DNA of 27,154 nucleotides from a virus. Shown piece after piece: positions 556-23,576 of this stretch. Positions within the stretch are counted from its first letter, which is position 1. Each line of letters opens with the position of its first letter. The stretch spans positions 1 to 27,154 of IMG/VR virus record IMGVR_UViG_3300005731_000104. One strand, given 5' to 3'. The notes under the pieces were generated by a model. It was not told the origin of the DNA. It ran no database searches and worked only from the letters and a program-made list of their open reading frames with translations. The translations under genes and the position numbers were made by a program.

Positions 556-1572
556 ATGACCCTGCAGTCTGACCTGTACAGCGGCAAACCCCGCATTGCG
601 GTCACCGGTCGCCACGTCGTCAGCGAGAGCATCGGCGGGCAGATCGGTCACAGCATCGAAATCCACTTTGAACCCGGCGCGCAGCTCATCGCCGCAGACG
701 GCCTGCGCCGCCCGGTGCTGGACCTGACGGGCAACGGCACCAACACGATAAAGATCGTGTCTCCTGCGGTTGACGTTTCCCACGGGGCTTACGGCGGCGG
801 GCAAACCAACACCGCAATCGCCCTGATGGGCTTCCGCAAGGCCACCGTTGCCGACGTGGACCTGTTCGGCGGTGAAGACTGGGCCAGCCGGAACGGCGAT
901 TCGGGCATATCCACAGTAGACATCGAGTACACGCTGATCGACGGTGGCGTGATTCGCGGGTTTCGCGACACGGCGGTTTATCCGGGCGGCAACAACGCGC
1001 TGGGCCCCGACGGCGACGGCGGCGTGTGCGACATCACCGGCTTGCATGTCTACGACTGCGAACACGCAGTTACAGCCAAGCGCGAAATGACCATGTGCCG
1101 TATAGACCGGATGCACGCCGAGAACTGCACTGCTGGAGTGATTCAGTCCAGCGTAATCAATGGGCACTACGTCGGCCCAGCACGCCGGATGCACGTCACC
1201 AACTCCACGTTCAAGCGCATCACCGCCAACGTCGCCCGCTTTCTGTCCGAAGGCACCGGGAAGTTTGCGGACAACACCATCGAGGACTGGGGCCGCTACC
1301 AGGACAGCACGCGAAACGCCGGAAACAACGCGGTGGCCATTTCGGTGCTCGGCGCGCAAGACGTGCGTGTCCGCGACAACGACCTGTTCGAGCGCGATTG
1401 GGTAGGTGCCGGGCGAATCGGCTTGCTGATCCGCGATCACAAGGACATCGACGGGCGACACCGGGTGGCCGGTGGCGTTGTGAGCCACGGGAACGACTAC
1501 GGCGCGAGCCAGGTGCTCGATACCGGCTCGATCCGGTCGCACTTCCGCGACGTGAGTCGATACCAGAAATAA
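556..1572 (+). CDS. Beta-helix (pectin-lyase-fold-like) tailspike or receptor-binding protein
   Basis: The 338-residue product has the pattern of a right-handed parallel beta-helix: short hydrophobic strands alternating with Gly/Asn/Asp turns (GGVIRGFRDTAVYPGGNN, VTNSTFKRITANVARFL, FADNTIEDW, VRDNDLFERD). Such proteins are phage tailspikes that bind or cut surface polysaccharide; no catalytic residues can be assigned by eye. It lacks an obvious N-terminal head- or tail-binding domain and may be the C-terminal part of a once longer spike, or may attach through a partner. The start at 556 has AGGA five bases upstream. It also overlaps the stop of an 11-codon ORF (ATG 524, MEIEQRRAGRR) as ATGA. 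It is GC-rich (39 of 60 bases at 601-660), in contrast to the fibre gene just upstream. A hairpin terminator follows the stop. Confidence 0.7.
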   Translation: MTLQSDLYSGKPRIAVTGRHVVSESIGGQIGHSIEIHFEPGAQLIAADGLRRPVLDLTGNGTNTIKIVSPAVDVSHGAYGGGQTNTAIALMGFRKATVADVDLFGGEDWASRNGDSGISTVDIEYTLIDGGVIRGFRDTAVYPGGNNALGPDGDGGVCDITGLHVYDCEHAVTAKREMTMCRIDRMHAENCTAGVIQSSVINGHYVGPARRMHVTNSTFKRITANVARFLSEGTGKFADNTIEDWGRYQDSTRNAGNNAVAISVLGAQDVRVRDNDLFERDWVGAGRIGLLIRDHKDIDGRHRVAGGVVSHGNDYGASQVLDTGSIRSHFRDVSRYQK

Positions 1573-1578
1573 GTTTCA

Positions 1579-1600
1579 GCCCGCCGAGAGCGGGTTTTTT
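1579..1600 (+). terminator. Intrinsic terminator after the tailspike gene
   Basis: Stem CCCGC / GCGGG (1580-1584 with 1590-1594), five-base loop CGAGA and a run of six T. It is followed within 8 bases by the AGGAGGG ribosome binding site of the next gene. The same stem recurs at about 9015 and 13,897. Confidence 0.8.
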
Positions 1601-1621
1601 ATTGCTTAGGAGGGCGGACGT

Positions 1622-3526
1622 ATGCCGCTACTGACACCAGAATTACCCGACCCGACCAAGCAATTGAAGCTGCCGGGCGTGCCCGATAACAGTTTTGCTA
1701 CGGGCAGCGCAAAATCGACGGGCGTACCTCAGATGGGTGAGCTGCCGACCGGAATGTCGGTGCAGGGGCGGCTTGATCGTCTGCTCAAATCCACGTCACC
1801 CTACATGCAGACCGCGAAACAGCAAGGCCTGCAGACAGCGAACCGTCGCGGGTTGCTGAACAGCAGCATTGCGGCCGGGGCAGCGCAGGGCGCGGCCATT
1901 GACCGGGCGCTACCGATTGCCCAGCAGGACGCAGGGCTATCCGGGCAGTTTGGCCTAAACCAGCAGAACTACGGTATCCAGTCGAATCTGTCGCGCCAGA
2001 GCGCCGCACAGAATCTGCGGGCGCAGACCCAGGCCGAGGGCTTCCAGAGTGGGCTATCGAGCCAGGAGGCGGCACAACGCCTGGCTGCGCAGACGCAATC
2101 TGAGAAGTTCCAGGGCGGCCAGTCGGCACTTGACCGACAATTGCAGCGCGAACAGCAACTCAAGCAGATCGAGGCACAGTACGGATTATCTCGTCAGGAG
2201 GCGGAACAACGCCTAGTTGCGCAAACGCAAGCCGAGGGTTTCCAGAAGTGGCAAACGACTGCTCAACTGGACGCAGCGAAAGAGAGCCAGATTCGTCAGA
2301 TTCAAGCTCAGTTCGGTCTGTCTCGTCAGGAAGCAGAGCAACGGCTGCAGGCGCAAACGCAAGCCGAGAGCGCGCAACGCGAGTCGCAAATTCGCAGCAT
2401 CGAGGCGCAATACGGGCTATCGCGTCAGGAGGCCGAGCAGCAACTGCGGTTTAACGAGCAGAACTACAACTTCGACATCGGCCGGATGGAGAAGCAGTCG
2501 GCGATCAACATCGAGAACCGCGAGGATGTGCAGGCTTACAACCAGGCGCAGGCACTTCTGCAGGGCGACATCAACGCCGGCCTGGTCGAACTGTCATCGA
2601 ACCTGCAGCAGCGCAAAGACGAGTACATGCGCAACTGGGCGATTGCCGATCGCGACTTCAGCGCGAACCGCGATGCCCTGAACGAGTACGCCACCTACGT
2701 GGACAAGGCGCAGATGGAGCTACGTGACGCGATTACACGAATCTCGACATCGCCTGACCTGAACGAAGACGCCAAGACGTACATGATCCAGCAGTACATC
2801 GAAGACACCAACTACCAGATCGGTATGCGGGAGGGTCTGCTGGCCGAGTTCGGCCTGACCCCGCCCGAGTCGGGGTACGGGCGCGAGCAGGGTGCGTCAG
2901 GTGTGTTTGAAAACTGGGACTTCGGTGACGCCTATGGGCAGCCCATCGAGGTCAGCGAGCCAGAGGTTCCCGACCTGGGTCCGAACTGGCAGGAACTGAT
3001 CGACCTGCTGCTGCCGTATCTCGACCAGGTTGACCCCGGAAGCACCGTGACGGGCTTGCCGGATGTGCGCACGGACGGGACCAGCGGCAACGGCAACGGT
3101 AACGGCGAGACCAACGGTAACGGCAGCGGTAACGGTGTATTCGTTCCGCTGGGACCCGGAACATTCATCTCCCCGGCACCCACCCCGCACACCAACGCCC
3201 AGCCCACCTACCAGCCTACGGGTACGCAGGTTGGCGGCAGCACCCCGGTGCGCAACACAACCCCGCGAAATCCTTGGAGTGAACTGCCAATCGGCGGGAC
3301 GGACAACCGTGGGTACACCAAGTACGAATTCGGCGCACTGGGACCGAATCAGGGTGACTACATCGTAGACGGGTCCAGCGGCCGGATTATCTCACGCGGG
3401 GCGAACGGGCAAATCTCCGAACGCATGATGCGCCCCGGCGAAGTGATCTCGGACCAATCCGGCACCACCTATCGCATGGACGAAAACGGGAACATGGGCG
3501 GCGGCGGCTCAGGTTTTTATTACTAG
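1622..3526 (+). CDS. Coiled-coil repeat virion protein, putative internal/structural
   Basis: A 634-residue protein of no recognised family. Residues about 123-278 are a Gln/Glu/Arg-rich helical repeat region with units such as SRQEAEQRL followed by AQTQAEGFQ, predicted to be long coiled coil. Residues about 280-420 are still helical and charged. The C-terminal third is low-complexity: a Gly-Asn tract (GNGNGNGETNGNGSGNG, about residues 487-505), a Pro/Thr-rich stretch, and a glycine-rich end (GGGGSGFYY). The start has a near-perfect Shine-Dalgarno (AGGAGGG at 1608-1614, 7-base spacing). The position between tailspike and ejection-type genes, and the helical, low-Cys make-up, suggest a virion structural or DNA-ejection protein. 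That role is inference from context. Confidence 0.7.
   Translation: MPLLTPELPDPTKQLKLPGVPDNSFATGSAKSTGVPQMGELPTGMSVQGRLDRLLKSTSPYMQTAKQQGLQTANRRGLLNSSIAAGAAQGAAIDRALPIAQQDAGLSGQFGLNQQNYGIQSNLSRQSAAQNLRAQTQAEGFQSGLSSQEAAQRLAAQTQSEKFQGGQSALDRQLQREQQLKQIEAQYGLSRQEAEQRLVAQTQAEGFQKWQTTAQLDAAKESQIRQIQAQFGLSRQEAEQRLQAQTQAESAQRESQIRSIEAQYGLSRQEAEQQLRFNEQNYNFDIGRMEKQSAINIENREDVQAYNQAQALLQGDINAGLVELSSNLQQRKDEYMRNWAIADRDFSANRDALNEYATYVDKAQMELRDAITRISTSPDLNEDAKTYMIQQYIEDTNYQIGMREGLLAEFGLTPPESGYGREQGASGVFENWDFGDAYGQPIEVSEPEVPDLGPNWQELIDLLLPYLDQVDPGSTVTGLPDVRTDGTSGNGNGNGETNGNGSGNGVFVPLGPGTFISPAPTPHTNAQPTYQPTGTQVGGSTPVRNTTPRNPWSELPIGGTDNRGYTKYEFGALGPNQGDYIVDGSSGRIISRGANGQISERMMRPGEVISDQSGTTYRMDENGNMGGGGSGFYY
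1988..2455 (+). repeat. Tandem coiled-coil-coding repeats in the virion protein
   Basis: In-frame degenerate repeats encode SRQxAxQxL-AQTQAE units at residues 124-142, 146-164, 190-208, 234-252 and 267-275. Spacers are irregular (22-44 residues between unit starts), with segments such as QIEAQYGL and QIQAQFGL in between. DNA identity between copies is visible, for example cgtcaggaggcgga-type segments near 2192, 2325 and 2422, so the array could expand or contract by recombination. Confidence 0.75.
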
Positions 3527-3534
3527 GAGCGCAC

Positions 3535-4356
3535 ATGAGCAACCCACACGGACTGTCCGACGCGGACTACACGAAACTGATTGACGCCGGCATGACCGAT
3601 GAGGTGATTGCCTCGTTTATCGCCAACGGAATAAACCCGATGTCTATGATCGGCATTTCCGGGGCGGACATCCCCGGCGACCTTTCGGGGCTCGGTGACC
3701 CGCTTGAGGGCGCCATCCGCGACAACCTTCCCGCTGATGACGCTGTCAACGATGGTGCGACCAACGGAGCCACTGGCGGAATTAACGGCAACAGCACACC
3801 CAACGCCGATATTTTCGGTGGCATCGATCTGCAGGCGATCTTTGATGAGTTCGGCATCGGGGATGTCCTCAAGAACAATGGCGATGCCAAGAAAGCATTC
3901 GTCAACGCGATCATCGGGCAAATTCTCGGCGACCAAATGTCCGAGAAGAACTTCGAGCGTGACCAGCGGGCGCTGGACATGGCTGATCAACGTGCCGCGA
4001 AAAACGCGCAGCAGAAACGCGACCGGGTGGATGACTCGATGTTCGGCTACCGCGACAAGGATTCCACTGGCCGGCTGACTGCATACCGTTCTGGCATCGG
4101 TCTGGCCGAGGGCTACGGAAAGGACGCAGACGGGAACTACAGCAAAGACAGCGGCGTGGGCCTGCTGAACCTGAACGCCAACCTGTACCGACCGGGCAGC
4201 GGCCAACGGTCGCCGGGTAACGAATCAGTACGCACCGGTTCGGGGCTGCTGACGCAAGTGAAATCCACCACGGGCAGCAGCGCTATGGCCGGGGGCAATG
4301 CCTTCGCCGAGCGGTATGCCGAATTGCAAAACAAGAGGATGAGCGATGGGCTTTAA
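3535..4356 (+). CDS. Hypothetical virion-associated protein
   Basis: A 273-residue acidic, Asn/Gly/Asp-rich protein that I do not recognise. The N-terminus (LSDADYTKLIDAGMTDEVIASFIANGINP) looks like a small helical UBA-like or helix-turn-helix hairpin. The middle is an Ala/Lys/Arg-rich helix (MADQRAAKNAQQKRDR) and the C-terminus is Gly/Ser-rich and probably flexible. The AGGAG at 3524-3528 overlaps the upstream TAG stop, so the gene is translationally linked to its neighbour. It overlaps the next gene by 11 bases. Lying inside a block of late structural genes, it is probably a virion component; nothing in the sequence shows an enzymatic function. Confidence 0.7.
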   Translation: MSNPHGLSDADYTKLIDAGMTDEVIASFIANGINPMSMIGISGADIPGDLSGLGDPLEGAIRDNLPADDAVNDGATNGATGGINGNSTPNADIFGGIDLQAIFDEFGIGDVLKNNGDAKKAFVNAIIGQILGDQMSEKNFERDQRALDMADQRAAKNAQQKRDRVDDSMFGYRDKDSTGRLTAYRSGIGLAEGYGKDADGNYSKDSGVGLLNLNANLYRPGSGQRSPGNESVRTGSGLLTQVKSTTGSSAMAGGNAFAERYAELQNKRMSDGL

Positions 4357-5221
4357 TCTCAAGCGTTCGCTGCGTAAAGCGGGCCTGACCAAAAAGCGGT
4401 TCAAGCGGTGGCAGGACTTCAATACCCCATTTGGCGAAGGATCGATCTCGCGCAAGATTTGGGAAAATCCCATCGGGCGTCAGGCCACCCAACTGGTAGC
4501 TGGCGCTGTTGGCGGGTACTTTGCTGGCCCATGGGGCGCTGCAGCCGCTGGTGGTGCTGTTAGCGCCGCAGCGGACGCACAGACTGGGCAGAAAGTCACC
4601 GCGCACACCGTTGGGCAGGGTGCCCTTACGGGCTACGCTGGCGGCCAGCTCGGCGCGTCGCGGGGGTTCACGCGCACTGCAGCAACACCACCAACAAGCG
4701 GCGGGCTACAGGCTCCCGCCATGGAAGGCGGTATGGGTGACTCCACGCGCCTGATGATTGATTCCGGTGTAGACACAACATTCGCACCAAAGTCTGAATC
4801 TTCGTTTGGGCTGAAAGGTATGGATCTTGGTTCATCTGTTAGCGGGTCGCCAGCTCCGGCGCCAACTGGCGGTCTACAGCTACCTGCCAGCACGGGCTTG
4901 GCAGGCGTGGCCGATCCTACCCCCAAAGCGCCGGGCGGTGGTCTGCTTAAGTCAGCATCGAACTTCGCCGCCGAAAACCCCGGAACGATTGCCACCGTTG
5001 CCGGCGCCGGAATTTCCGGTGTCGCTGGCAGTATGCAGCAGCGTGCGGCCGACGAAGAAGCCGCGAAACGCCAGAAGGCCGCAGACATGCAGGCCATGAT
5101 TCGTGAGTACCTGGCGAATGCCTCGCGCTCAGGCGATTTGAACAAGTTGCTGTCGCAGATTCTGCTGCAGCAAAACATCCAGCAACCGGGCGGCATTAGC
5201 GGCCTGTCATTCCGAGGTTAA
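4346..5221 (+). CDS. Glycine-zipper virion protein, possible DNA-ejection/membrane-interacting
   Basis: A 291-residue protein with a basic N-terminus (LKRSLRKAGLTKKRFKRW) followed by an Ala/Gly-rich hydrophobic segment (GAVGGYFAGPWGAAAAGGAV, about residues 53-72) with glycine-zipper spacing. A second Gly/Ala segment follows (about 205-225, TIATVAGAGISGVAGSM) and then a charged helix (QQRAADEEAAKRQKAADMQ). Glycine zippers in phage late proteins are typical of ejected internal proteins that line a channel through the envelope, so an ejection role is plausible but not proven. The start lies inside the upstream gene (11-base overlap) with AGGA six to seven bases ahead. No enzymatic motif is visible. 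Confidence 0.7.
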   Translation: MGFNLKRSLRKAGLTKKRFKRWQDFNTPFGEGSISRKIWENPIGRQATQLVAGAVGGYFAGPWGAAAAGGAVSAAADAQTGQKVTAHTVGQGALTGYAGGQLGASRGFTRTAATPPTSGGLQAPAMEGGMGDSTRLMIDSGVDTTFAPKSESSFGLKGMDLGSSVSGSPAPAPTGGLQLPASTGLAGVADPTPKAPGGGLLKSASNFAAENPGTIATVAGAGISGVAGSMQQRAADEEAAKRQKAADMQAMIREYLANASRSGDLNKLLSQILLQQNIQQPGGISGLSFRG

Positions 5222-5224
5222 GTC

Positions 5225-5647
5225 ATGGCGCTACTGCAACCCGAACCGCAGCAACCTGCGATCGACCCCCAGGCGATCAAGCAGGAGGCGGAACCGCTGG
5301 AAGATGCGACCCCCGAAGAACAGGAAATCTACGACACCGTCGTCGCTGAAACCGTCAAGGCGGTGATGGCTGACGGGATGATCTCGAAGGTGATCCGCCG
5401 TATGACCAAGGGCAACCCCGCCGAGGTTGCGGCCAAGACGGCTGTCGGCGCGGTCAAGACCTTTATCGCTGCGATGGGGGGCACGGTGGACCCCGAAATC
5501 GCCATCAATGCTGCCGTTGAGGTGGCTACGCAGATTCACGAAGTCGCCATTGAAGGCGGGCTGATGAAGAACGACGCCAATACCGCGCAGATGCTTCTCG
5601 GCATGGTCGTGGCCGAGGCAGAGAAGGAGTTTGGCAATGGCGAATAG
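5225..5647 (+). CDS. Small helical virion-type protein, hypothetical
   Basis: A 140-residue acidic and largely alpha-helical protein of unknown function. It has a Pro/Gln/Glu-rich N-terminus (about 1-32), followed by Ala-rich amphipathic helices (VVAETVKAVMADGMISKVIRRM; AAVEVATQIHEVAIEGG). GAGGT precedes the ATG and overlaps the end of the gene before it, only 3 bases separating the two frames. The stop lies 11 bases inside the next gene. Proteins of this kind commonly occur beside ejection/internal virion genes in phage late operons; that assignment is from context only. Confidence 0.7.
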   Translation: MALLQPEPQQPAIDPQAIKQEAEPLEDATPEEQEIYDTVVAETVKAVMADGMISKVIRRMTKGNPAEVAAKTAVGAVKTFIAAMGGTVDPEIAINAAVEVATQIHEVAIEGGLMKNDANTAQMLLGMVVAEAEKEFGNGE

Positions 5648-6743
5648 TGCAGATTGGCTGGCCGGTATCGGTGCAGCCCTCCAGACGGGCGGGCTGCTCG
5701 GGCTTGATATTGCAAAAAACAAGGAAAAAGTAGCTGCTGAACAGCAAAGAATCGGGCTTCAGCAAGAAACGATTCAGATCAGCCGCGAGAATCTTGAGCT
5801 TGCCCGGCAGGAAGCAGCGCGCAGGCACGATGAAGCTAAACAATTGCTGGAATTCAGGTTGAAGCAGCTACAGCCTGACTCGTATCGTCAGTTCAATCTG
5901 GAGCAGGAAAACCCAGACTATCGTGCGGCGATGCAGTCAGCACGACAAAGTGCACTGACTAAGCCTGAGGGAAAGCCATTTGAGGCCACCGATAAGGATG
6001 GGAACCGCGTTCTTGTGCAACGTAATGCCGATGGGTCATTGACTCCCGTTGAAGGTTTCGGGCCAGCGGCAAAAAGTGGCGGGATATCGCTGACAACACC
6101 TGACGGGTCAACAGTACAGATCGGTGGGCCGCAAAATGGTGGAAGCAGTGAGTTAAGCAATCCGACAGTCAACAAGCTGCAGGAATCGATGGTCAACTAC
6201 CAGGGCGGCCTTGATCGCCTTCGTTCCATTCGTGAAAAAGCGGCCCCAGGGTTTCTGACATATCAGGGGAAGATTGACGCCGCGCTGCTGAATGCAAAAG
6301 ATAAGGCGCAATTGTTCGGCATGCGCCCGTTTGGCGCTCTAGACGAAAAAGACAAGGACTTCCTTGTCGGGTATACCCAGTTCAAGAGCGACACCACGAA
6401 TAACCTCAATCGGTACATCAAAGAGATTACCGGCGCGGCGATGACGCAAGCGGAAGCCGAGCGCATCATGTCCGCCGCTCCTACTCTGGATGACGGCCCC
6501 ACTACTTTTACGGCGAAGCTCGACTCAACGGTTAATCAACTATCGAAGGCCATGGCGCGCGCGCATTGGACACTCAAGAACGGCGTGTCTGTCGATTCAA
6601 TACCGCTCGAAAACATGGATCAGGTTGTTCAGGAATACGGCAACAAGGTCGAATCTCAGATTCGGGCATCGAATCCAGATATGCCAGCGGATGAAGTTGA
6701 AAAGCTCGCCATATCGCAAGTCCGTCGCGCGTTTGGGATGTAA
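5637..6743 (+). CDS. Putative internal virion/ejection protein
   Basis: The product is 368 residues from ATG 5637. I prefer this over the in-frame TTG at 5631 because AAGGAG (5624-5629) lies 7 bases from the ATG but only 1 base from the TTG. Residues about 25-80 form a charged helix (KEKVAAEQQRIGLQQETIQISRENLELARQEAARR, coiled coil). The middle is a Gly/Asp/Gln-rich linker and the C-terminal half is globular and helical (NNLNRYIKEITGAAMTQAEAERIM). It overlaps the previous gene by 11 bases. The family is not recognised; its place before a large Ala/Gly-rich protein suggests an ejection-apparatus component. Base composition drops here compared with the genes to the left, so a module boundary may lie near 5640. 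Confidence 0.65.
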   Translation: MANSADWLAGIGAALQTGGLLGLDIAKNKEKVAAEQQRIGLQQETIQISRENLELARQEAARRHDEAKQLLEFRLKQLQPDSYRQFNLEQENPDYRAAMQSARQSALTKPEGKPFEATDKDGNRVLVQRNADGSLTPVEGFGPAAKSGGISLTTPDGSTVQIGGPQNGGSSELSNPTVNKLQESMVNYQGGLDRLRSIREKAAPGFLTYQGKIDAALLNAKDKAQLFGMRPFGALDEKDKDFLVGYTQFKSDTTNNLNRYIKEITGAAMTQAEAERIMSAAPTLDDGPTTFTAKLDSTVNQLSKAMARAHWTLKNGVSVDSIPLENMDQVVQEYGNKVESQIRASNPDMPADEVEKLAISQVRRAFGM

Positions 6744-6745
6744 CT

Positions 6746-8734
6746 ATGGCTGACTACGCAAACGCCCTCTTTGGGGCTGAAAAAGATGCTCCTGCCGATG
6801 ACGGCGTGAGCAAAACCGATTACTCCGCGCGCCTGTTCCAGTCCGCTGGCGACGGTAATCGTCAGGAAGCTCCCATGGCCCCCGCTACAGGCGAGGGCGC
6901 GGGTTTCACAACGATCATAAAGGCCAACATCCCAGAAGACCAGGAAACAAAGCTGCGGGTTCTCGCTAACTCATTATTCCCGAATGACCCCGACGCGCGC
7001 AGCAAGGTTGCGATGCATGACGGGAAGATGGTCTTCAAAAATGACCAAAACCAGTTTGAGTACGCAAGTACAGGTGGGTCAGGGCTTGCGGCAGGTATTG
7101 TGTCAAGCCTCCCTGAGATTGCTGGAGGTGCTATTGGGTCTTTTGCTGGCAACCCCTATCTCGGTGCAATTTTAGGAGGTATTGCCGGGAAAGGCTTGAA
7201 GCAAGTGGCGTCAAATATTCTCTTTGATGAGCCGCAAACAGTAGGCGGCAACGTCAAAGGGATGGCAGCCGAGGGCGCAATTGAAGCCGTTGGCGGCGCT
7301 ATCGGCAGAACCGCCTCGTCACTTTATACGCGTACAGCAGTCCGCAATGCGGAAAAGCTCAGCGTTCCGGTTGCAGATGCGACAAAGAGACGAATCGCAG
7401 CGAGCACAGGGATTGACCTTGACTATGCCCAGGTAGGGAATATCAGGCAGTTGCGCGACCTCAAAAAATGGGCGTCAAAGTTCCCCAGTGAATCCGCAGA
7501 GATCATTGAAGAACTCGACAAAAAGCAGCTTGGGCAATCCATGGATGCCGTGCAGAATAAGGTTCTTGACGTGCTATCGCGTGAAACAGACCCGAACATG
7601 CTGGCAAGCCGAGGAATCAATGCAGCACAAGCGGCGATCGATGCTGCCAAGGTCCGTCGTGCTGAACTCACACGCGACTTGTACAAGCAGGCATCGTCAG
7701 AAACGCTTGGGCCTACGGCGCTTGGATTGTTCAAGACGAACCCTGTTATTACCGCGGCGGCAAAGAGAGCCAAGGCGGACCCGGCTTACAGGGCGCTGAT
7801 GGACGATGCCGGCGAAAAAACAGTGGGGTACTGGCATGTCGTAAAGCAGGTCATGGATGACATGGCAGATGGTGCGGCGCGAGATTCTGCGAAAACGCGT
7901 GCGTCGTCAATTTCCCAAGCGAAAAGCACCCTTTTGAACGCGTTGGACGATGCCAGCCCGGCGTACAGAGAGGCGCGAATCAAATTCCGCGAGGCATCGC
8001 AACAACTGGTGGAGCCACTGGAAAACGGCGTTATTGGCGCCCTGGCGAAAATTAAAGGGCACCGCGTAGCAAAGGCGGCAGCCGGTGTTGTTGACGATGT
8101 TTTTGCGAACCCAACGACAACCGCGCTCGTTCGGGCGCAAATCGTGAATTCAAGCGGCGAGCAGGCATGGAAAGATATTCTAAAACTTTCCATGACAAAG
8201 CAGTTTGAAAAGGCCGCGAGAGAGGCACAATCGGGTGAAGTTGTTAACTTCGCCGGGAAGTTTCGACAGTCAGTGATTGGCACGCCCGAGCGGAAACGCG
8301 CTATGCAGAGAGCGCTTGGCACTCAGGGATACGCCGTATTCAACGATATCATGGATGCCTTTGGGTTAATTGCGAAAGACCTCCGTGGCCGGTCAGGTTC
8401 AGACACGGCCTTTAATCAGGCAATCACAATGCACCAGGCAGAGGCTGCGAAATCTCTCGGACAAAAAGGGCTTCAGGCTGTAACAAAAGCAGCGAACCCA
8501 TTTGAGTGGGCCAAGGGCGTTAGTGAATTTGGCGGGAAAGACGCGCTAGAAAAGCGGAGCGTAGCCATTGCTGAGGCATTGACAGACCCTGGCAAGCTGG
8601 CCCGGCTGCGTGAGTTGCGAAGAATTCCCAAAGGCCCCCAGAGGGCGATTCTTACTTTGTCAGTTCTTGGTATTCACGCAGTAGATCAGCAGATGCCTTC
8701 TTCCGACGACTCCGATCTACAAACGTTCCAATAA
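6746..8734 (+). CDS. Large putative internal virion (DNA-ejection) protein
   Basis: A 662-residue protein. It has a short acidic N-terminus, then a compact domain at about 50-110 (IIKANIPEDQETKLRVLANSLFPNDPDARSKV). A glycine-zipper hydrophobic segment follows (GLAAGIVSSLPEIAGGAIGS through GAILGGIAGKG, about residues 112-152), and the remaining 450 residues are helical and rich in Ala, Lys, Arg and Glu. This architecture (hydrophobic zipper plus long helical rod) resembles ejected proteins of short-tailed phages, but I see no catalytic motif such as a lytic transglycosylase. The upstream Shine-Dalgarno is weak. The 3' end overlaps the reverse-strand gene 8652-8921 by 83 bases, a convergent tail-to-tail overlap. 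Confidence 0.65.
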   Translation: MADYANALFGAEKDAPADDGVSKTDYSARLFQSAGDGNRQEAPMAPATGEGAGFTTIIKANIPEDQETKLRVLANSLFPNDPDARSKVAMHDGKMVFKNDQNQFEYASTGGSGLAAGIVSSLPEIAGGAIGSFAGNPYLGAILGGIAGKGLKQVASNILFDEPQTVGGNVKGMAAEGAIEAVGGAIGRTASSLYTRTAVRNAEKLSVPVADATKRRIAASTGIDLDYAQVGNIRQLRDLKKWASKFPSESAEIIEELDKKQLGQSMDAVQNKVLDVLSRETDPNMLASRGINAAQAAIDAAKVRRAELTRDLYKQASSETLGPTALGLFKTNPVITAAAKRAKADPAYRALMDDAGEKTVGYWHVVKQVMDDMADGAARDSAKTRASSISQAKSTLLNALDDASPAYREARIKFREASQQLVEPLENGVIGALAKIKGHRVAKAAAGVVDDVFANPTTTALVRAQIVNSSGEQAWKDILKLSMTKQFEKAAREAQSGEVVNFAGKFRQSVIGTPERKRAMQRALGTQGYAVFNDIMDAFGLIAKDLRGRSGSDTAFNQAITMHQAEAAKSLGQKGLQAVTKAANPFEWAKGVSEFGGKDALEKRSVAIAEALTDPGKLARLRELRRIPKGPQRAILTLSVLGIHAVDQQMPSSDDSDLQTFQ

Positions 8735-9037: not shown

Positions 9038-9052
9038 ATGCCCGGAGTATTG

Positions 9053-9829
9053 ATGGACCCCTACGATTTTGACGCACGCATTACGCCTGCGGGACGACTG
9101 GAAATTGGCTTCGGCGGCAACATTCTGTCGTTGGGGCGCGTGCGGGGCCGGGACGGGCTGGACGGACGCGATGGCAAGGACGGGCGTAATGGCGCGGATG
9201 GGGCCAACGGGCGTGACGGCAAGGACGGCAAGCCCGGCCAACCCGGTGCCCCCGGTAAAGACGGCCAACCCGGCGCCCCCGGAGCGCCTGGCAAGGATGG
9301 GCGGGACGGCAAGAACGGAGCGGACGGGCGCGATGGCGCACCCGGCAAGCACGGGAAACCGGGGCGAAACGGGAAAGACGGTCAGGACGCGCTGCCGCTG
9401 CGCTACGAGTACGACGAAACACAGACCCGGTTCCGCCTGGGGCCGGTGCTCAACGCCGAAGGCAAGCGTCGGAAGTGGTCCGAATGGATGCACCTGGGCT
9501 CCAAACTCATTAAGCCGAGCGGAGCGATTGCCACCGGCCACGGAACGCTGCTCAAAGAGCAGGACATCGTTCGGCTCATCGAAAGGAATACAACCATGAA
9601 TGCGATCGACGGGTACGTCCTATCGGACGAGGAATCGCCGGGCGACGTGGACTACTTCGGCTATCAAAAACCTGACGGCACGGGCTGGTACATCCGCCGA
9701 ATCGACCACACCACCACACCGATCACCCACCGCTTCGCCTCGAAAGTATCAACCGGTGACACCTATGCCGATGGCTGGGCAAACCGCGCCGGCCTGTCTT
9801 ACGTCACCCTTCCGGATGCCTACCTATGA
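9053..9829 (+). CDS. Collagen-like tail fibre protein, possibly fused to a small fibre-associated domain
   Basis: 258 residues from ATG 9053. An ATG at 9038 is also in frame, but it overlaps the terminator T-run end and would place GGAG inside the gene; GGAG at 9043-9046 fits ATG 9053, as in the parallel arrangement at 13,937. Residues 32-112 are 27 uninterrupted Gly-X-Y triplets (RDG, KPG, APG, KDG types), expected to form a triple helix in a trimeric fibre. Before it is a short N-terminal domain (FDARITPAGRLEIGFGG). After it is a globular region with aromatic residues (RKWSEWMHLGSKLI). The last 77 residues (MNAIDGYVLSDEESPGDVDYFGY...) resemble a small protein usually encoded alone near phage fibres. 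Its ATG (9596) has its own AAAGGA, so it may also be made separately. Confidence 0.8.
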   Translation: MDPYDFDARITPAGRLEIGFGGNILSLGRVRGRDGLDGRDGKDGRNGADGANGRDGKDGKPGQPGAPGKDGQPGAPGAPGKDGRDGKNGADGRDGAPGKHGKPGRNGKDGQDALPLRYEYDETQTRFRLGPVLNAEGKRRKWSEWMHLGSKLIKPSGAIATGHGTLLKEQDIVRLIERNTTMNAIDGYVLSDEESPGDVDYFGYQKPDGTGWYIRRIDHTTTPITHRFASKVSTGDTYADGWANRAGLSYVTLPDAYL

Positions 9830-13936: not shown

Positions 13937-14440
13937 ATGCGCGACGTAACCCTGCTGGTCATCCACTGCACCGCCACACCGCCCAGCGCCGACATCGGGC
14001 TGGCCGAGGTGGACGACTGGCACTGGCAGCGCGGCTGGCGCAGCCCCTCGGGCATCCACTGCGGCTATCACTACATCATCCGCCGCGATGGCCGGGTGGA
14101 GCTGGGGCGCCCGGAGCATGAGCAGGGCGCGCACGCCAAACGCTACAACCACAACAGCCTGGCCATTGCGCTGGTGGGCGGGGTCGATGCGAACAACCGG
14201 CCGGAGAACAACTTCACCGGGGCGCAGATGAAAGCCCTGCGGGAGCTGGCCGACCGGATTGCCGAGGACTACCCCGGCATCACTGTGCTCGGGCACCGGG
14301 ATTTGCCCGGCGTGGCCAAGGAGTGCCCCTGCTTCGATGTCAAGTCGTGGTGGGCAGGTGGCGCGTTCAAAGAGCCCGCCGACTTACCCAAGGAGCAGCC
14401 GTGGATACCCGACCCTGTAATTCCCGCGAGCCTGCTGTGA
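13937..14440 (+). CDS. Endolysin: zinc N-acetylmuramoyl-L-alanine amidase, T7-lysozyme type
   Basis: This 167-residue Amidase_2/PGRP-fold enzyme cuts the bond between MurNAc and the stem peptide of peptidoglycan at lysis. The zinc ligands are visible: H10 (VIHCTAT), H120 (GHRDLPG) and C130 (KECPCFDV). K128 and the Tyr of GYHYIIRRDG (Y44 or Y46) match the catalytic Lys and Tyr of T7 lysozyme. There is no signal peptide, so the enzyme needs a holin, which is encoded just downstream. The GGAG at 13,926-13,929 sits 7 bases before the ATG. The stop overlaps the GTG start of the holin gene. The last 30 residues (ADLPKEQPWIPDPVIPASLL) are an uncharacterised tail. Confidence 0.93.
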   Translation: MRDVTLLVIHCTATPPSADIGLAEVDDWHWQRGWRSPSGIHCGYHYIIRRDGRVELGRPEHEQGAHAKRYNHNSLAIALVGGVDANNRPENNFTGAQMKALRELADRIAEDYPGITVLGHRDLPGVAKECPCFDVKSWWAGGAFKEPADLPKEQPWIPDPVIPASLL

Positions 14441-15391: not shown

Positions 15392-15771
15392 CTGGTAAAG
15401 AGCTTTTCCTTATCGGGGCGCTCGCTCTGCCCGCTGTCGTAGGCACTGTGCAAGTGGCGAGCCTGAGCATGGAGCAAGTCTGCTCCAGTAGACCGATGTC
15501 CGTGCTGTTCATTGATGAGAACGGTGACGCGATCCGCCCGCAACCGCGAGAAGCCATTTTGTTGCGCCGGGCATCCGACTCAGCGGTCGAGGTGATGCGG
15601 TACTCAAACAGCCGCCTGCACGGCTTTGTGTCGTGCGCTAAAGAGCTAAAAAACTTCGACATCGTTCAGCGTTACCAGATTTACAAGATGAGTAGTGGGC
15701 TGCCAGTTGCTGGCATCCGGTGGGATTCCAATAGAGGCCGCTGGGTCGCTGAAATCGAGTTTCAGGAGTAG
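15388..15771 (+). CDS. Hypothetical exported or membrane-anchored protein
   Basis: 127 residues from ATG 15,388, which overlaps the preceding stop (ATGA). The N-terminus is hydrophobic (ELFLIGALALPAVVGTVQVASL, about residues 4-25) and could be a signal peptide or anchor. The rest is a small domain with two Cys (C32, C82) and a beta-rich pattern (VLFIDENGDAIRPQPREAILL, VQRYQIYKMSSGLPVAGIRW, RGRWVAEIEF). It is not recognised. The two Cys fit a periplasmic location with a disulfide. The setting between lysis genes and a metallophosphoesterase gives no firm clue to its job. Confidence 0.65.
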   Translation: MTGKELFLIGALALPAVVGTVQVASLSMEQVCSSRPMSVLFIDENGDAIRPQPREAILLRRASDSAVEVMRYSNSRLHGFVSCAKELKNFDIVQRYQIYKMSSGLPVAGIRWDSNRGRWVAEIEFQE

Positions 15772-15775
15772 TCAC

Positions 15776-16921
15776 ATGCCAACGCCACCGCTCGACTGGG
15801 AACTGGCCCGCGAGGCCTTTGAGCTTGCTCAGGAACTCGGCTCGGTAACAGAAGCCGCAGCAAAGGCGGACATTCCGCGCAGCACATTCAACCACCGAGT
15901 GCAGCGATGGCGAAACCGGGCACGGTTCGGGTACTCGCCCGAGCACGACATGCACCACCCGGCGCCGGATGGGTTCAAGGTCAAGGGCATTTCGACCTAC
16001 TACAACGACGAGGGCCAGCCGACCGGGCAGTGGGTCAAGACCACCGCCGACCAGGAGCGGCAGCGGGAAATGATGCTGGAGGCCGTGCAGGCGATGGCCG
16101 AGGACTTGCCCCGGCAGCCGCGCATCGACCCACCGGGCTTCGCCGACGCCGACCTGCTCAATCTCTACGTCATCACCGACTACCACCTTGGCATGCTGGC
16201 GTGGGGCGAGGAAACAGGCGACGACTGGGATACGGACATTGCCGAGAACACGCTGGTCGCATGGTTTGCCCAAGCCATAAAAGCATCTCCAGAGTCGGAG
16301 CTTGGCGTCTTCGCACAACTCGGAGACTTCATGCACTGGGACGGCCTGGACGCCGTGACCCCAACAAACCGGCACGTTCTCGACGCCGATACCAGATTCC
16401 AGAAACTGGTACGGGTAGCAATCAGGGTCATCCGCCGCGTCATCAACATGCTGCTCGAAAAGCACAACAAGGTCCACGTGTTGATGGCAGAAGGCAACCA
16501 CGACCTGGCCAGCTCGATATGGCTGCGTGAATGGCTCGCCGCGATTTACGAAAATGAGCCACGCATTACCGTGGACACAAACCCCGACCCCTACTACTGC
16601 GTAGAGCACGGGAAAACATCGCTGTTCTTCCACCATGGGCACAAGCGACGGCCCGCACAAGTGGATGCCGTCTTTGCCGCCAAGTACCGCGACGTATTCG
16701 GGCGCACACAGCACTCATACGCCCACATGGGCCATTTGCACCACGTAGAGCAGAAAGAGACCAGCCTGATGATTGTGGAGCAGCACCGCACGCTCGCGGC
16801 GTCTGACAGCCATGCCAGCCGTGGAGGGTGGATGTCAGGGCGCGACGCCAAGGTCATCACATACAGCAAGCAGCACGGCGAAGTCTCCCGGTCAATCATC
16901 AACTACCAGATGGTCGCATGA
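15776..16921 (+). CDS. HTH-linked metallophosphoesterase (calcineurin-like)
   Basis: 381 residues from ATG 15,776, chosen because GGAG lies 8 bases upstream. Residues 1-46 look like a helix-turn-helix of the small-terminase/Psq type (SVTEAAAKADIPRSTFNHRVQRW). Residues about 128-345 carry the full metallophosphatase signature: D135-x-H137 (ITDYHLGM), G183-D184 (QLGDFMHW), G240-N-H-D243 (EGNHDLA), H287 (FFHHGHK) and G319-H320-x-H322 (MGHLHH). Enzymes of this fold use two metal ions to cut phosphate esters in nucleic acids, nucleotides or proteins, so DNA or RNA processing is plausible but the substrate is unknown. An HTH fused to such a domain suggests DNA targeting. The stop overlaps the next ATG as ATGA. 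Confidence 0.85.
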   Translation: MPTPPLDWELAREAFELAQELGSVTEAAAKADIPRSTFNHRVQRWRNRARFGYSPEHDMHHPAPDGFKVKGISTYYNDEGQPTGQWVKTTADQERQREMMLEAVQAMAEDLPRQPRIDPPGFADADLLNLYVITDYHLGMLAWGEETGDDWDTDIAENTLVAWFAQAIKASPESELGVFAQLGDFMHWDGLDAVTPTNRHVLDADTRFQKLVRVAIRVIRRVINMLLEKHNKVHVLMAEGNHDLASSIWLREWLAAIYENEPRITVDTNPDPYYCVEHGKTSLFFHHGHKRRPAQVDAVFAAKYRDVFGRTQHSYAHMGHLHHVEQKETSLMIVEQHRTLAASDSHASRGGWMSGRDAKVITYSKQHGEVSRSIINYQMVA

Positions 16922-17195: not shown

Positions 17196-17222
17196 CCCCT
17201 GGCCGAAAGGCCGGGGGTTTTT
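17196..17222 (+). terminator. Strong terminator ending the late operon
   Basis: CCCC-T-GGCC stem (17,196-17,204) pairs with GGCC-G-GGGG (17,209-17,217, one T-G wobble) around a GAAA tetraloop, and five T follow. It would stop late transcription before attP. Confidence 0.9.
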
Positions 17223-17351
17223 GTTGTTTCTGGGGTGGGCGATAGGTGGAATACGCAGTGGTGCGTAATGGTGCCCAGTGGGACGAAACGCCCACCTGTC
17301 GTTAGGATGCAAGTTAATCAATCACCAAAAACAACAACTTACAATGCATGC

Positions 17352-17401
17352 CCTGATTTGTAATCAGGGGGTCGGGGGTTCGAATCCCTCAGCCGGCACC
17401 A
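17352..17401 (+). tRNA. 3' half of tRNA-Thr(UGU), attachment core (not a complete tRNA)
   Basis: From the anticodon arm to the CCA end, the bases fold as expected: stem CCTGA / TCAGG around loop TTTGTAA (anticodon TGT = UGU, Thr). A variable loop follows, then a T arm with GTTCGAATC and a 3' acceptor strand AGCCGGC ending ACCA. The 5' half (D arm and 5' acceptor strand GCCGGCT) is missing upstream. This is how phages integrate into a tRNA 3' end: the copy they bring restores the host gene. It is not expected to make a functional tRNA here. Confidence 0.85.
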
Positions 17402-17421
17402 TTTAAAACAAAGGGTTACGG

Positions 17422-17447
17422 GAGATTTCGGAATCAGCCAAAATCTC
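17422..17447. repeat. Short inverted repeat beside the attachment core
   Basis: Perfect 7-base inverted repeat GAGATTT / AAATCTC with a 12-base loop, between the tRNA fragment and the right arm-type site. It may be a protein-binding site or a weak hairpin at the integrase 3' end; there is no T-run for a clear terminator on either strand. Confidence 0.35.
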
Positions 17448-17470
17448 AAGTGGGCGATAAGTGGAACGCA

Positions 17471-18613
17471 TCACGCTTTCACGGCCCTCAAAAGCACCCC
17501 TTCCTTCTGCACGCAAATCGCCTCAACAGCGCCGATCAGTTCTTCCAATTCGGCCTGACTGTAGTGCGTCGTGATGTCTCCCGTTGTATGCCCGAGCAGT
17601 GCGGAGCGGGTTTCTTTGCTGATTCCTGCGGCGCGGAGCCTGCGGCCAAAAGTGTGCTTCAGGTCGTGGAAGTGCAGGTCGCCAAGTTTTGCCCGTTCCC
17701 TGGCGCTACGCCATGCCTTCGTGTTGATCCTGAGTACAGGGTGCCGCTCCGGCTGCTTGTCCTTGTTGGGGCCGCTCTTTGGCGTGGGTGGCTGGTAGGT
17801 AAAAACGTGCGTCTTGTGTAGCCCCCGCTGTCGGTCAACGGCCTCAGCGGCGATCTGGTTCAGAACGATTACGCGGGGCTCGCCGTTTTTCGTTACCTTG
17901 CCGGGTAGTTCGAACATGACGTTCTTCACGCCTTGAGCCCGTCGCTCCCACTCCCATTGCAGCCCCGTTATTTCCTGTTCGCGGCATCCGGTGTTGAGCG
18001 CATACAGGGCCATGTCATGGAGGTGTGGTGGAAGCTCGTTCATCAGCTTGGCTTGCTCCGCCCAGGACAGGGCATAGGGCGGGCGCTGGTCGGTCTTTGG
18101 TAGCAGTACGATTTTCGGCGGATGCTCAAGCCACGTCAGCCCGCCAGGGTCGCGCCATGTGCCTGCGCACAGATTGAGTATTCGGCGAACCACAGCAAGG
18201 TGGAGATTGATCGTGTTCGCTTTGTTCCCGGCGGCTCTGGCGTCATCAATGAACTTTTGCAGGGTTCCCATGTGCACTTGGTGCAGCGGGAGGTCGCCAA
18301 TATAAGGTCGCAGACGCTTTATCTGCGAGGTGTCATCGGCAATACTTTTCTTGTGCTGGTGTTCGCTGATGAATTTTGTGGCTGCTTCAAGGAAAGTTCG
18401 CTGGGGCCGGGTGCCGAACTGGGCGGATCGGCGGGTTTCTTCGACGAGCCTTGCGAGGTACGCCTCTGCTTCTTGCGGATCGTCCGTTCGGCTACTGCAT
18501 CGAAGTCGCTGGCCGAAAATCTTTTTGTCAATGAACCAGTAGCCTCCGGCTCCGTCCGCGTGCTCACGCCAGATGATTCCTTTGGTCCGATGCTTTCGAG
18601 CTGGTCCGCCCAT
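17471..18613 (-). CDS. int: Tyrosine recombinase phage integrase
   Basis: The 380-residue enzyme cuts and joins attP to the host tRNA-Thr attB. Residues about 1-65 form a DNA-binding arm domain (GIIWREHADGAGGYWFIDKK..GQRLRCSSRTDDPQEAEAYLA), about 72-165 a core-binding domain, and 180-355 the catalytic domain. The catalytic set is R211 (NTGCREQEI), K242, H316 (FHDLK), H342 (LLGHTTG) and Tyr351 (THYS). The usual second Arg of HxxR is Lys (K319). The gene ends 5 bases from the attP arm site, the common arrangement. Its ATG lies within the upstream Xis-like ORF in another frame. Expression would come from the early leftward operon. Confidence 0.95.
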   Translation of the reverse strand: MGGPARKHRTKGIIWREHADGAGGYWFIDKKIFGQRLRCSSRTDDPQEAEAYLARLVEETRRSAQFGTRPQRTFLEAATKFISEHQHKKSIADDTSQIKRLRPYIGDLPLHQVHMGTLQKFIDDARAAGNKANTINLHLAVVRRILNLCAGTWRDPGGLTWLEHPPKIVLLPKTDQRPPYALSWAEQAKLMNELPPHLHDMALYALNTGCREQEITGLQWEWERRAQGVKNVMFELPGKVTKNGEPRVIVLNQIAAEAVDRQRGLHKTHVFTYQPPTPKSGPNKDKQPERHPVLRINTKAWRSARERAKLGDLHFHDLKHTFGRRLRAAGISKETRSALLGHTTGDITTHYSQAELEELIGAVEAICVQKEGVLLRAVKA

Positions 18614-21595: not shown

Positions 21596-21933
21596 CACCG
21601 CACCCCGTACTTCTTCATTGCCGCAAGCTGGTCGGGCGTTTCCTTGCCTCTTTTTGCGTGCCAGCCCCGAAGGGCGTGGCCGATGAACTTCCGGGGCGGG
21701 CGGGAGCCGGGGAGTTTCAGTTCGACAAGGGCGGCTGCAGGCGCGTGAGCACCGATGGGGGTGTTCACGGCCTCTTCGTGGGTCCACCCCGCGTATCGCC
21801 GGGTCCGGTACGTCGCACGCTTGATGTGCCCCGGCACGATGTGCGTTTCACCGCGCACCGTCACCTCGTAGTCGGGCGGTGTGGATGGCGGCTGGATGTC
21901 CATCGAGAGGACTTTTTTGAATCGTGGGTTCAT
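21595..21933 (-). CDS. Hypothetical basic early protein
   Basis: 112 residues from ATG 21,933, which overlaps the helicase stop (ATGA). It is basic and Pro-rich (VRGETHIVPGHIKRATYRTRRYAGWTHEEAVNTPIG...KFIGHALRGWHAKRG). The stretch RTRRYAGWTHEEAVNTP resembles the small 'GWxxEEAL..P' motif that recurs in phage DNA-binding or nuclease-associated proteins, so a nucleic-acid role is possible but weakly supported. An internal ATG (M11) is an alternative start. Confidence 0.6.
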   Translation of the reverse strand: MNPRFKKVLSMDIQPPSTPPDYEVTVRGETHIVPGHIKRATYRTRRYAGWTHEEAVNTPIGAHAPAAALVELKLPGSRPPRKFIGHALRGWHAKRGKETPDQLAAMKKYGVR

Positions 21934-23576
21934 GCCGCCGCCTCGAAGAAACGCACTTCATCGACTTGAAAAAAGCGTCCGTTCTGGCTGACACAAATAC
22001 GCCGTGGTTCGCGCAACTCATGCGAACGGTGCAATGCGTCATCAACGCTAGTTGGCGTCGGGATGTTGCCCCCACGGTCTGACCACCAGCGTGCTGCACG
22101 AATGCCAGCCCCGCCGTCGCGCCCAATCGTCACCCACTCGTTGAACGTCTGCAGGCCGCATACATACGAAACCTTCATGGATTCCGCCCCTGTCGCCTGC
22201 TTGACGTGCTTGCTGTACCGGGCTCGCTTTACGTCGTGCCAGCGCGGTTCGGCTGTTGCTGCCATCGGGCTGGTGCTGTCTGCAGTTAGGTCGAGTTTGT
22301 CCCAGTGGTCTTTTTCTGCGTCCGATGCAAATGAATGGCCGCACTCAGGGCATTCGCTCGCATTCATGGCAATCAGTGCCTCACACTCTGGGCATTCTTT
22401 GGTCTGCGGCTCATCAACGCCGCGCTTCTTGCGGCGATGCACTTTGATCTTGTCGATGGGGCCGTGTCGCCTGACATTGCTGCCATAGTCAAGAAGGAGG
22501 CAATACTCCTTACCTGGCGCCACACGCATGCCCCGCCCGATAATCTGCACATGAAGAACGGTTGATTGCGTGGCACGCAACATCACCACCATGTCCACAT
22601 CCGGCACATCGAATCCCGTGGTGAACACAGCGCAGTTAACTAATGCCTGAAACTCGCCAGCCTTAAAACGACGGACTGTTTCATCGCGTTCGGCAATGGA
22701 ATGCGTGCCGACCACATAATCGGCTGCAATGCCGCGCTGCTCTAGACCGGCGACGGTCTGCTCTACGTGTTCAACATTGCTGCAGAAAATGATCCACTTC
22801 TTGCGATCACAGGCATTCCCGCGCTTGACCACTTCGTCAAGGATCGGGCCAGATGCGGACATAAATGCGTTGGCCATCTGGTTTTCATCGTATTCGCCAC
22901 GCACGATCTTGATACTGGACAGGTCAACCGATGACTTGCTTCCAACAGACTTCACCGGGGCAACCCGTTTGAGATCGAGCAATTCCTTGACCGAAATGCT
23001 GTGGCAGATATCGTCAAAGACGTACTTCGACAATTCTTCTGGGTCTGTCTCGCCATCACGAACAATCGGCCCGCCACCAGTCCGGTACGGGGTCGCAGTC
23101 AGCCCCACTACAACCGGGTTCCCTAGTCGCTCGAATACTTGCTGGTACTGGCTCTTTGGCTTGTCCTCATCGTCTGTGACCAAGAACGGTACGCGATGGC
23201 ACTCGTCAACAATCACGACATCAAAATGCGGCAGGCTTTTTGCCCGCGCCAGTGATTGCACGCTGGCGAAAACAATGGGCTGGTCCAGTTCCTTGCGCTT
23301 CATGCCTGCTGCGTAAACGCCGACCGGGGATTCCGGCCAGACATCGAGCAGGCGTTCTTCGTTCTGGGCGACAAGCTCTTTGACATGCACAAGCATCAAG
23401 ATGCGCTGGTTTGGCCAGGCCTTGAGAACTTCGGAGCAGAACCAGGCAACGATGACGCTTTTGCCCGATGCAGTCGGCGCTTCAACAACCGTGGACTTGC
23501 CAGGGTTTGCGTACAGGTACGCCATCAGGTCTTCATAGGCGCGTTGTTGAAATGGGAATGGGGTGACGAGACTCAA
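21930..23576 (-). CDS. SF2 DNA helicase with C-terminal zinc ribbon (TTG start)
   Basis: 548 residues. The start is TTG 23,576, which overlaps the preceding stop as TTGA with GAGGT upstream; the next Met is 18 residues in and would remove the conserved PFPFQQRAYEDL. Motifs in order: Walker A APTASGKS (33-40), DECH (124-127), TATP (160-163), then the C-terminal RecA domain with motif VI QIIGRGMR (344-351). A zinc ribbon follows (C395, C398, C409, C412 in CPECEALIAMNASECPECGHSF). Such helicases unwind DNA, often in replication or recombination. It lies directly downstream of a nuclease, an ssDNA-binding protein and a RecA-fold ATPase. Confidence 0.92.
   Translation of the reverse strand: MSLVTPFPFQQRAYEDLMAYLYANPGKSTVVEAPTASGKSVIVAWFCSEVLKAWPNQRILMLVHVKELVAQNEERLLDVWPESPVGVYAAGMKRKELDQPIVFASVQSLARAKSLPHFDVVIVDECHRVPFLVTDDEDKPKSQYQQVFERLGNPVVVGLTATPYRTGGGPIVRDGETDPEELSKYVFDDICHSISVKELLDLKRVAPVKSVGSKSSVDLSSIKIVRGEYDENQMANAFMSASGPILDEVVKRGNACDRKKWIIFCSNVEHVEQTVAGLEQRGIAADYVVGTHSIAERDETVRRFKAGEFQALVNCAVFTTGFDVPDVDMVVMLRATQSTVLHVQIIGRGMRVAPGKEYCLLLDYGSNVRRHGPIDKIKVHRRKKRGVDEPQTKECPECEALIAMNASECPECGHSFASDAEKDHWDKLDLTADSTSPMAATAEPRWHDVKRARYSKHVKQATGAESMKVSYVCGLQTFNEWVTIGRDGGAGIRAARWWSDRGGNIPTPTSVDDALHRSHELREPRRICVSQNGRFFQVDEVRFFEAAA

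Follow-up and report, generated by a model that had tools for sequence, protein, structure and literature searches.

A tRNA-Thr(UGU) 3' half between paired repeats and beside an integrase gene as the probable attachment site of a temperate tailed phage

The stretch of viral DNA analysed here, 27,154 nt in length and hereafter called the window, carries half of a threonine tRNA gene in the gap between rightward late genes and a leftward integrase gene. The question raised by this locus is whether the half gene is the attachment site (attP) of a temperate phage and, if so, at which bacterial gene, and in which bacteria, integration would take place. The features on which the argument rests are listed below, with (+) and (-) indicating the strand.

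13937-14440 (+): endolysin (amidase), a late gene of the left flank (phrog_822, 2.8e-58)
15695-16921 (+): phage DNA repair exonuclease/phosphoesterase, the last large gene to the left of the proposed attP (phrog_704, 1.7e-135)
17196-17217 (+): terminator-like hairpin followed by a T run, at the end of the rightward late genes and just left of the proposed attP (pattern scan)
17235-17251 (+): putative arm sites for the integrase on the left (P) side, GTGGGCGATAGGTGGAA; one copy of a 17-nt direct repeat, matching 17,450-17,466 at 94% identity
17352-17401 (+): attP core, a tRNA-Thr(UGU) 3' half extending from nt 27 (base 1 of the anticodon stem) to the CCA (sequence; exact genome matches)
17357-17363 (+): anticodon loop TTTGTAA, candidate 7-bp strand-exchange (overlap) region between the inverted half-sites CCTGA and TCAGG (from relatives)
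17450-17466 (+): putative arm sites for the integrase on the right (P') side, GTGGGCGATAAGTGGAA, immediately next to the end of its gene (direct repeat)
17471-18613 (-): tyrosine integrase of 380 aa, its gene running towards the tRNA half (Pfam Phage_integrase 5.8e-13; PHROG integrase 1.4e-50)
21930-23576 (-): helicase, one of the early (leftward) genes of the right flank (phrog_16, 2.2e-97; RadD-like, below the curated cut-off)

The tRNA half and its surroundings

Read directly, the core consists of the stem CCTGA, the loop TTTGTAA with the anticodon TGT, the stem TCAGG, the variable GGGTC, the T arm GGGGG-TTCGAAT-CCCTC, the acceptor 3' strand AGCCGGC and the terminal A-CCA. Both the D arm and the 5' acceptor strand are absent from the bases 5' of 17,352, and neither ARAGORN nor Rfam retrieved a complete tRNA in the window. 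The first-pass annotation, which had described these 50 bases as the anticodon-to-CCA half of tRNA-Thr(UGU) devoid of its 5' half, was thus confirmed, and the complete tRNA-Thr upstream of the core that would speak against it was not found by ARAGORN. The half-tRNA pattern (both stems perfect, plus CCA) occurred once in the window and in none of 60 shuffled windows.

Phage genes lie on both sides of the core, as had also been proposed. To the left, the rightward late genes, including the amidase, a spanin and the phage exonuclease (57-58% identical to coliphage proteins), are followed by the terminator-like hairpin, which is weak evidence if taken alone because three such patterns occur in the region against 2.9 expected. 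To the right, the leftward genes code for the tyrosine integrase, the helicase, a Cas4-type exonuclease and a Sak4-like protein, the last three being functions of replication or recombination; a search with the helicase returned only relatives of 28% identity. Farther from the core, the large genes of the structural region (556-8734) are almost without database matches, the best, at 28.6% identity, being to a protein of a P22-like podovirus, uncultured and originating from a spring (MW202691), and the large structural gene at 1622-3526 had neither a phage match nor a confirmed relative among the viral contigs. The gene at 9038-9829 codes for a probable tail protein with collagen-like triple-helix repeats, and the open frame at the left edge (1-534) resembles, by eye, the C-terminal chaperone portion of a spike or tail fibre.

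The outer bounds assigned to the site in the first-pass annotation, 17,235 and 17,466, coincide with the limits of the 17-nt direct repeat that surrounds the core. The two copies lie 215 nt apart and the pair scored 14, the maximum in shuffled sequence being 10, so that the core is bordered on both sides by arm-like repeats, as in a lambda-type attP. A similar placement was detected at 10 of the 23 other scorable attP-type sites of the same integrase clade, such repeats being absent from some related sites. In those ten sites the left end falls 104-112 nt before the core and the spacing is 206-227 nt; at several of them the repeat is made of two units, 11-12 nt apart. On the basis of sequence and placement, the flanking repeats are predicted to be arm sites to which the integrase would bind.

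Bacterial genes matching the core and the probable host

The exact 50-mer was found in 20 of approximately 85,000 species genomes, always as the 3' end of an intact tRNA-Thr(UGU) gene, and in all 20 the identity to the genomic tRNA gene ends precisely at 17,352. Relatives of the integrase were also found beside this gene: two of them (L226 and L241, with approximately 51% identical integrases), which belong to the family that includes nine of the exact-core genomes, adjoin an intact tRNA-Thr(UGU). For L226, a far-end copy was not found within the roughly 42 kb searched. In genome G948, where L241 is located, the element measures 11.5 kb: the intact gene lies at about 3,179,470 and a displaced copy, exact over 45 nt, near 3,190,990, the copy having as its first base nt 32, with which the anticodon loop opens. 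This island is thus an integrated relative with the duplicated ends predicted for such an insertion, namely a regenerated gene at one end and a displaced 3' copy at the other.

These results bear out the earlier reading of the locus as an attP directed at tRNA-Thr(UGU), including the expectation that bacterial genes of this type would end in the same 50 bases. The accompanying proposal, that prophages with this integrase would be found beside the same tRNA, held for these two relatives, one of them being that of the G948 island. Neither a prophage with a near-identical integrase nor an integrated copy of the window's own phage was found in the genome searches, and that the window's integrase acts at this very site is therefore inferred.

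As for the host, 11 of the 20 exact-match genomes are titled as alphaproteobacteria, mostly Hyphomicrobiales. The other nine, titled as gammaproteobacteria or merely as proteobacteria, all belong to one family (217 genomes in the collection) whose titles give names such as Steroidobacteraceae, and a sample of gammaproteobacteria yielded one additional exact 50-nt match. Since exact cores are present in alpha- and gammaproteobacteria alike, the host is ambiguous on this evidence, and G+C content (58% in the window, 48-72% at the candidate loci) does not discriminate. The distribution of the integrases is more informative: clade members were detected in 2 of 249 Hyphomicrobiales genomes at E 1e-40, as against 24 of 196 genomes of the gammaproteobacterial order at the stricter E 1e-60, which makes Hyphomicrobiales the less likely host. 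Steroidobacteraceae-type gammaproteobacteria thus appear more likely than Hyphomicrobiales to harbour the phage. The exact host species was not found among the approximately 85,000 species genomes scanned, and a scan of viral contigs for the exact core gave no match.

The integrase clade and the position of strand exchange

A scan of viral contigs with the single integrase protein did not retrieve any relative, and a profile scan was therefore needed; together with bacterial genome searches, it led to relatives up to 54% identical. The presence of a tRNA was scored in the 105 relatives having at least 260 nt of DNA past the integrase gene, these loci being non-independent. A tRNA gene or a tRNA 3' half was found beside the integrase in 92 of them by the automatic test and in a further 10 when the T arm alone was required, with three negative. 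These three clade integrases, L134, L150 and L151, have no tRNA gene or half nearby, possibly reflecting other targets or decayed ends. At another locus (G938:C160), two clade integrase genes (L232 and L242) are arranged in tandem with less than 1 kb between them, which suggests elements stacked at one tRNA gene. In the window's integrase, the motif HDLKHT near residue 316 has a lysine in place of the second catalytic arginine (usually HxLR); the lysine version occurs in 140 of 160 clade members and arginine in 15.

The target tRNAs of the clade comprise Met, Phe, Arg (ACG, TCG, CCG), Pro (GGG, CGG), Lys, Ala, Thr(CGT), Thr(UGU) and, in one case each, Gln and Val. Relatives located at other tRNAs do not contradict the attP reading, because the core of each matches the tRNA concerned. 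Trees built from 65 and 63 integrases required at least 18 changes of tRNA identity, compared with about 42 when the labels were shuffled, and the tRNA label is therefore clustered and yet often switched; indeed, of two integrases 83% identical to each other, one uses Met and the other Phe. The window's integrase itself sits on a long branch, and its placement on these trees is unreliable for that kind of reason, long branches. Taken as a whole, this proteobacterial clade probably combines a fixed architecture (crossover in the anticodon loop, arm sites in pairs separated by about 210 nt, integrase gene convergent with the tRNA half) with frequent target swaps, at least 18 among 12 tRNA identities, to which the window adds Thr(UGU). 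Were this the case, the clade would be a natural series for studying how integrases get retargeted.

The position of the crossover was considered in the light of the same relatives. When ten distinct clade sites of the attP type with a tRNA-Pro(GGG) core were compared with the intact gene, the identity ran without exception (10/10) from nt 32 through the loop and the following stem, and before nt 32 it was imperfect and irregular. This homology boundary at nt 32, shared by the tRNA-Pro(GGG) sites and by the G948 island, fits an exchange in the anticodon loop. The identity of the window to the bacterial genes at 17,352-17,356 exceeds the minimum seen among the relatives. By analogy with them, the 7-bp crossover of the window most likely corresponds to the anticodon loop, 17,357-17,363.

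Integration model and comparison with known systems

The locus is almost certainly the complete attP of a temperate tailed phage, composed of a left pair of putative arm sites, the core formed by the tRNA-Thr(UGU) 3' half, a right pair of putative arm sites and the convergent integrase gene, and serving for integration into the tRNA-Thr(UGU) gene of the host. According to this model, the integrase would recombine the core with the 3' half of the host tRNA-Thr(UGU) gene, with strand exchange probably occurring across the 7-nt anticodon loop. The 5' half of the host gene, joined to the 3' half borne by the phage, would then make up a whole tRNA-Thr next to the integrase gene, the original 3' half of the host gene being pushed to the far end of the prophage. 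A second half carried by the phage, which keeps the tRNA gene whole after insertion, is a common and well-understood arrangement.

The alternative that survives best, and one we regard as unlikely, is that the contig derives from a chromosome with prophages in tandem, or with one prophage next to a remnant, the attachment site lying between two phage genomes. The P-core-P' structure of such a junction would be identical to that of free phage DNA, circular or concatemeric, and the record is indeed classed as a linear virus contig and has no terminal repeat. However, the two sides match a single phage map, in which late genes, attP, integrase and early genes follow one another, and both arm-like repeats are retained around the core; moreover, tandem prophages are the rarer case.

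A tRNA-dependent lysogeny, in which the host tRNA is disrupted on integration and replaced by one that the phage provides, is very improbable here. It is a known mode for phages whose integrases act at tRNA genes, and it involves a core of about 10 bp, a tRNA gene left broken and a phage-borne tRNA of the same isotype (PMC10865867). The core of the window, by contrast, is 50 nt long and would restore the whole gene, and no tRNA gene for the disrupted isotype, or any other, is present in this partial contig. Least credible of all is a phage tRNA gene in decay, or else an element unconnected with integration, whether regulatory or due to chance, since, even if phages do carry tRNA genes and their tRNA-Thr genes resemble the core, the half starts at a boundary of the recombination type, keeps every base of the bacterial gene, and lies between arm-like repeats beside an integrase gene in a position and polarity shared with about 100 relatives.

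With the attP reading, the integration site of an otherwise poorly related phage is fixed and the range of its probable hosts is reduced. The reading also gives one more tRNA identity to a clade in which the attachment architecture is constant and the target is not, which is useful for studying or choosing integrases; the rest is textbook phage biology.

Among named phages, the closest integrases are those of phiPSA1/PSA-2T of Pseudomonas syringae and CF418P1 of Achromobacter, with identities of 39-43% by tblastn and 42-45% over the alignment. As in the window, PSA-2T and CF418P1 carry a tRNA 3' half of the same polarity beside the integrase gene, and their paired arm-like repeats are 207 nt and 209 nt apart, respectively, compared with 215 nt. 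Unlike the window, the core of phiPSA1/PSA-2T and CF418P1 is that of tRNA-Pro(GGG) and the arm sequences differ, the likeness noted here being that of the integrase and attP. The tRNA identity is instead shared with the Burkholderia phage KL3, its relative Carl1 and the Pseudomonas phage UFJF_PfPro, all having an attP with a tRNA-Thr(UGU) 3' half near the integrase. For KL3, sequencing placed the integration in a threonine tRNA gene at the boundary described above, the identity covering nt 32-76 (PMC3091744). These three phages, however, are P2-like (Peduoviridae), and their integrases are not among the listed best matches of the window's integrase. The G948 island (L241, L253) resembles the window in both respects, having an approximately 51% identical integrase and tRNA-Thr(UGU) as target, and differs in being an integrated element and in the T stem of its core.

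More generally, tDNA sites centred on the anticodon loop (class A), in which the crossover is placed at that loop and the 3' fragment travels with the element, form a class described in the Islander catalogue (PMC4383910; Williams 2002 as cited). The window carries the tRNA gene from around the anticodon loop onwards and lacks the 5' half, its core equals over 50 nt the intact host gene with the same anticodon, and the end of a tyrosine integrase gene, recognized by both Pfam and PHROG, lies about 70 nt from the core; the integrated form is represented by the relative in G948. Nothing essential sets the window apart from class A sites, to which it contributes a further tRNA identity for this integrase clade.
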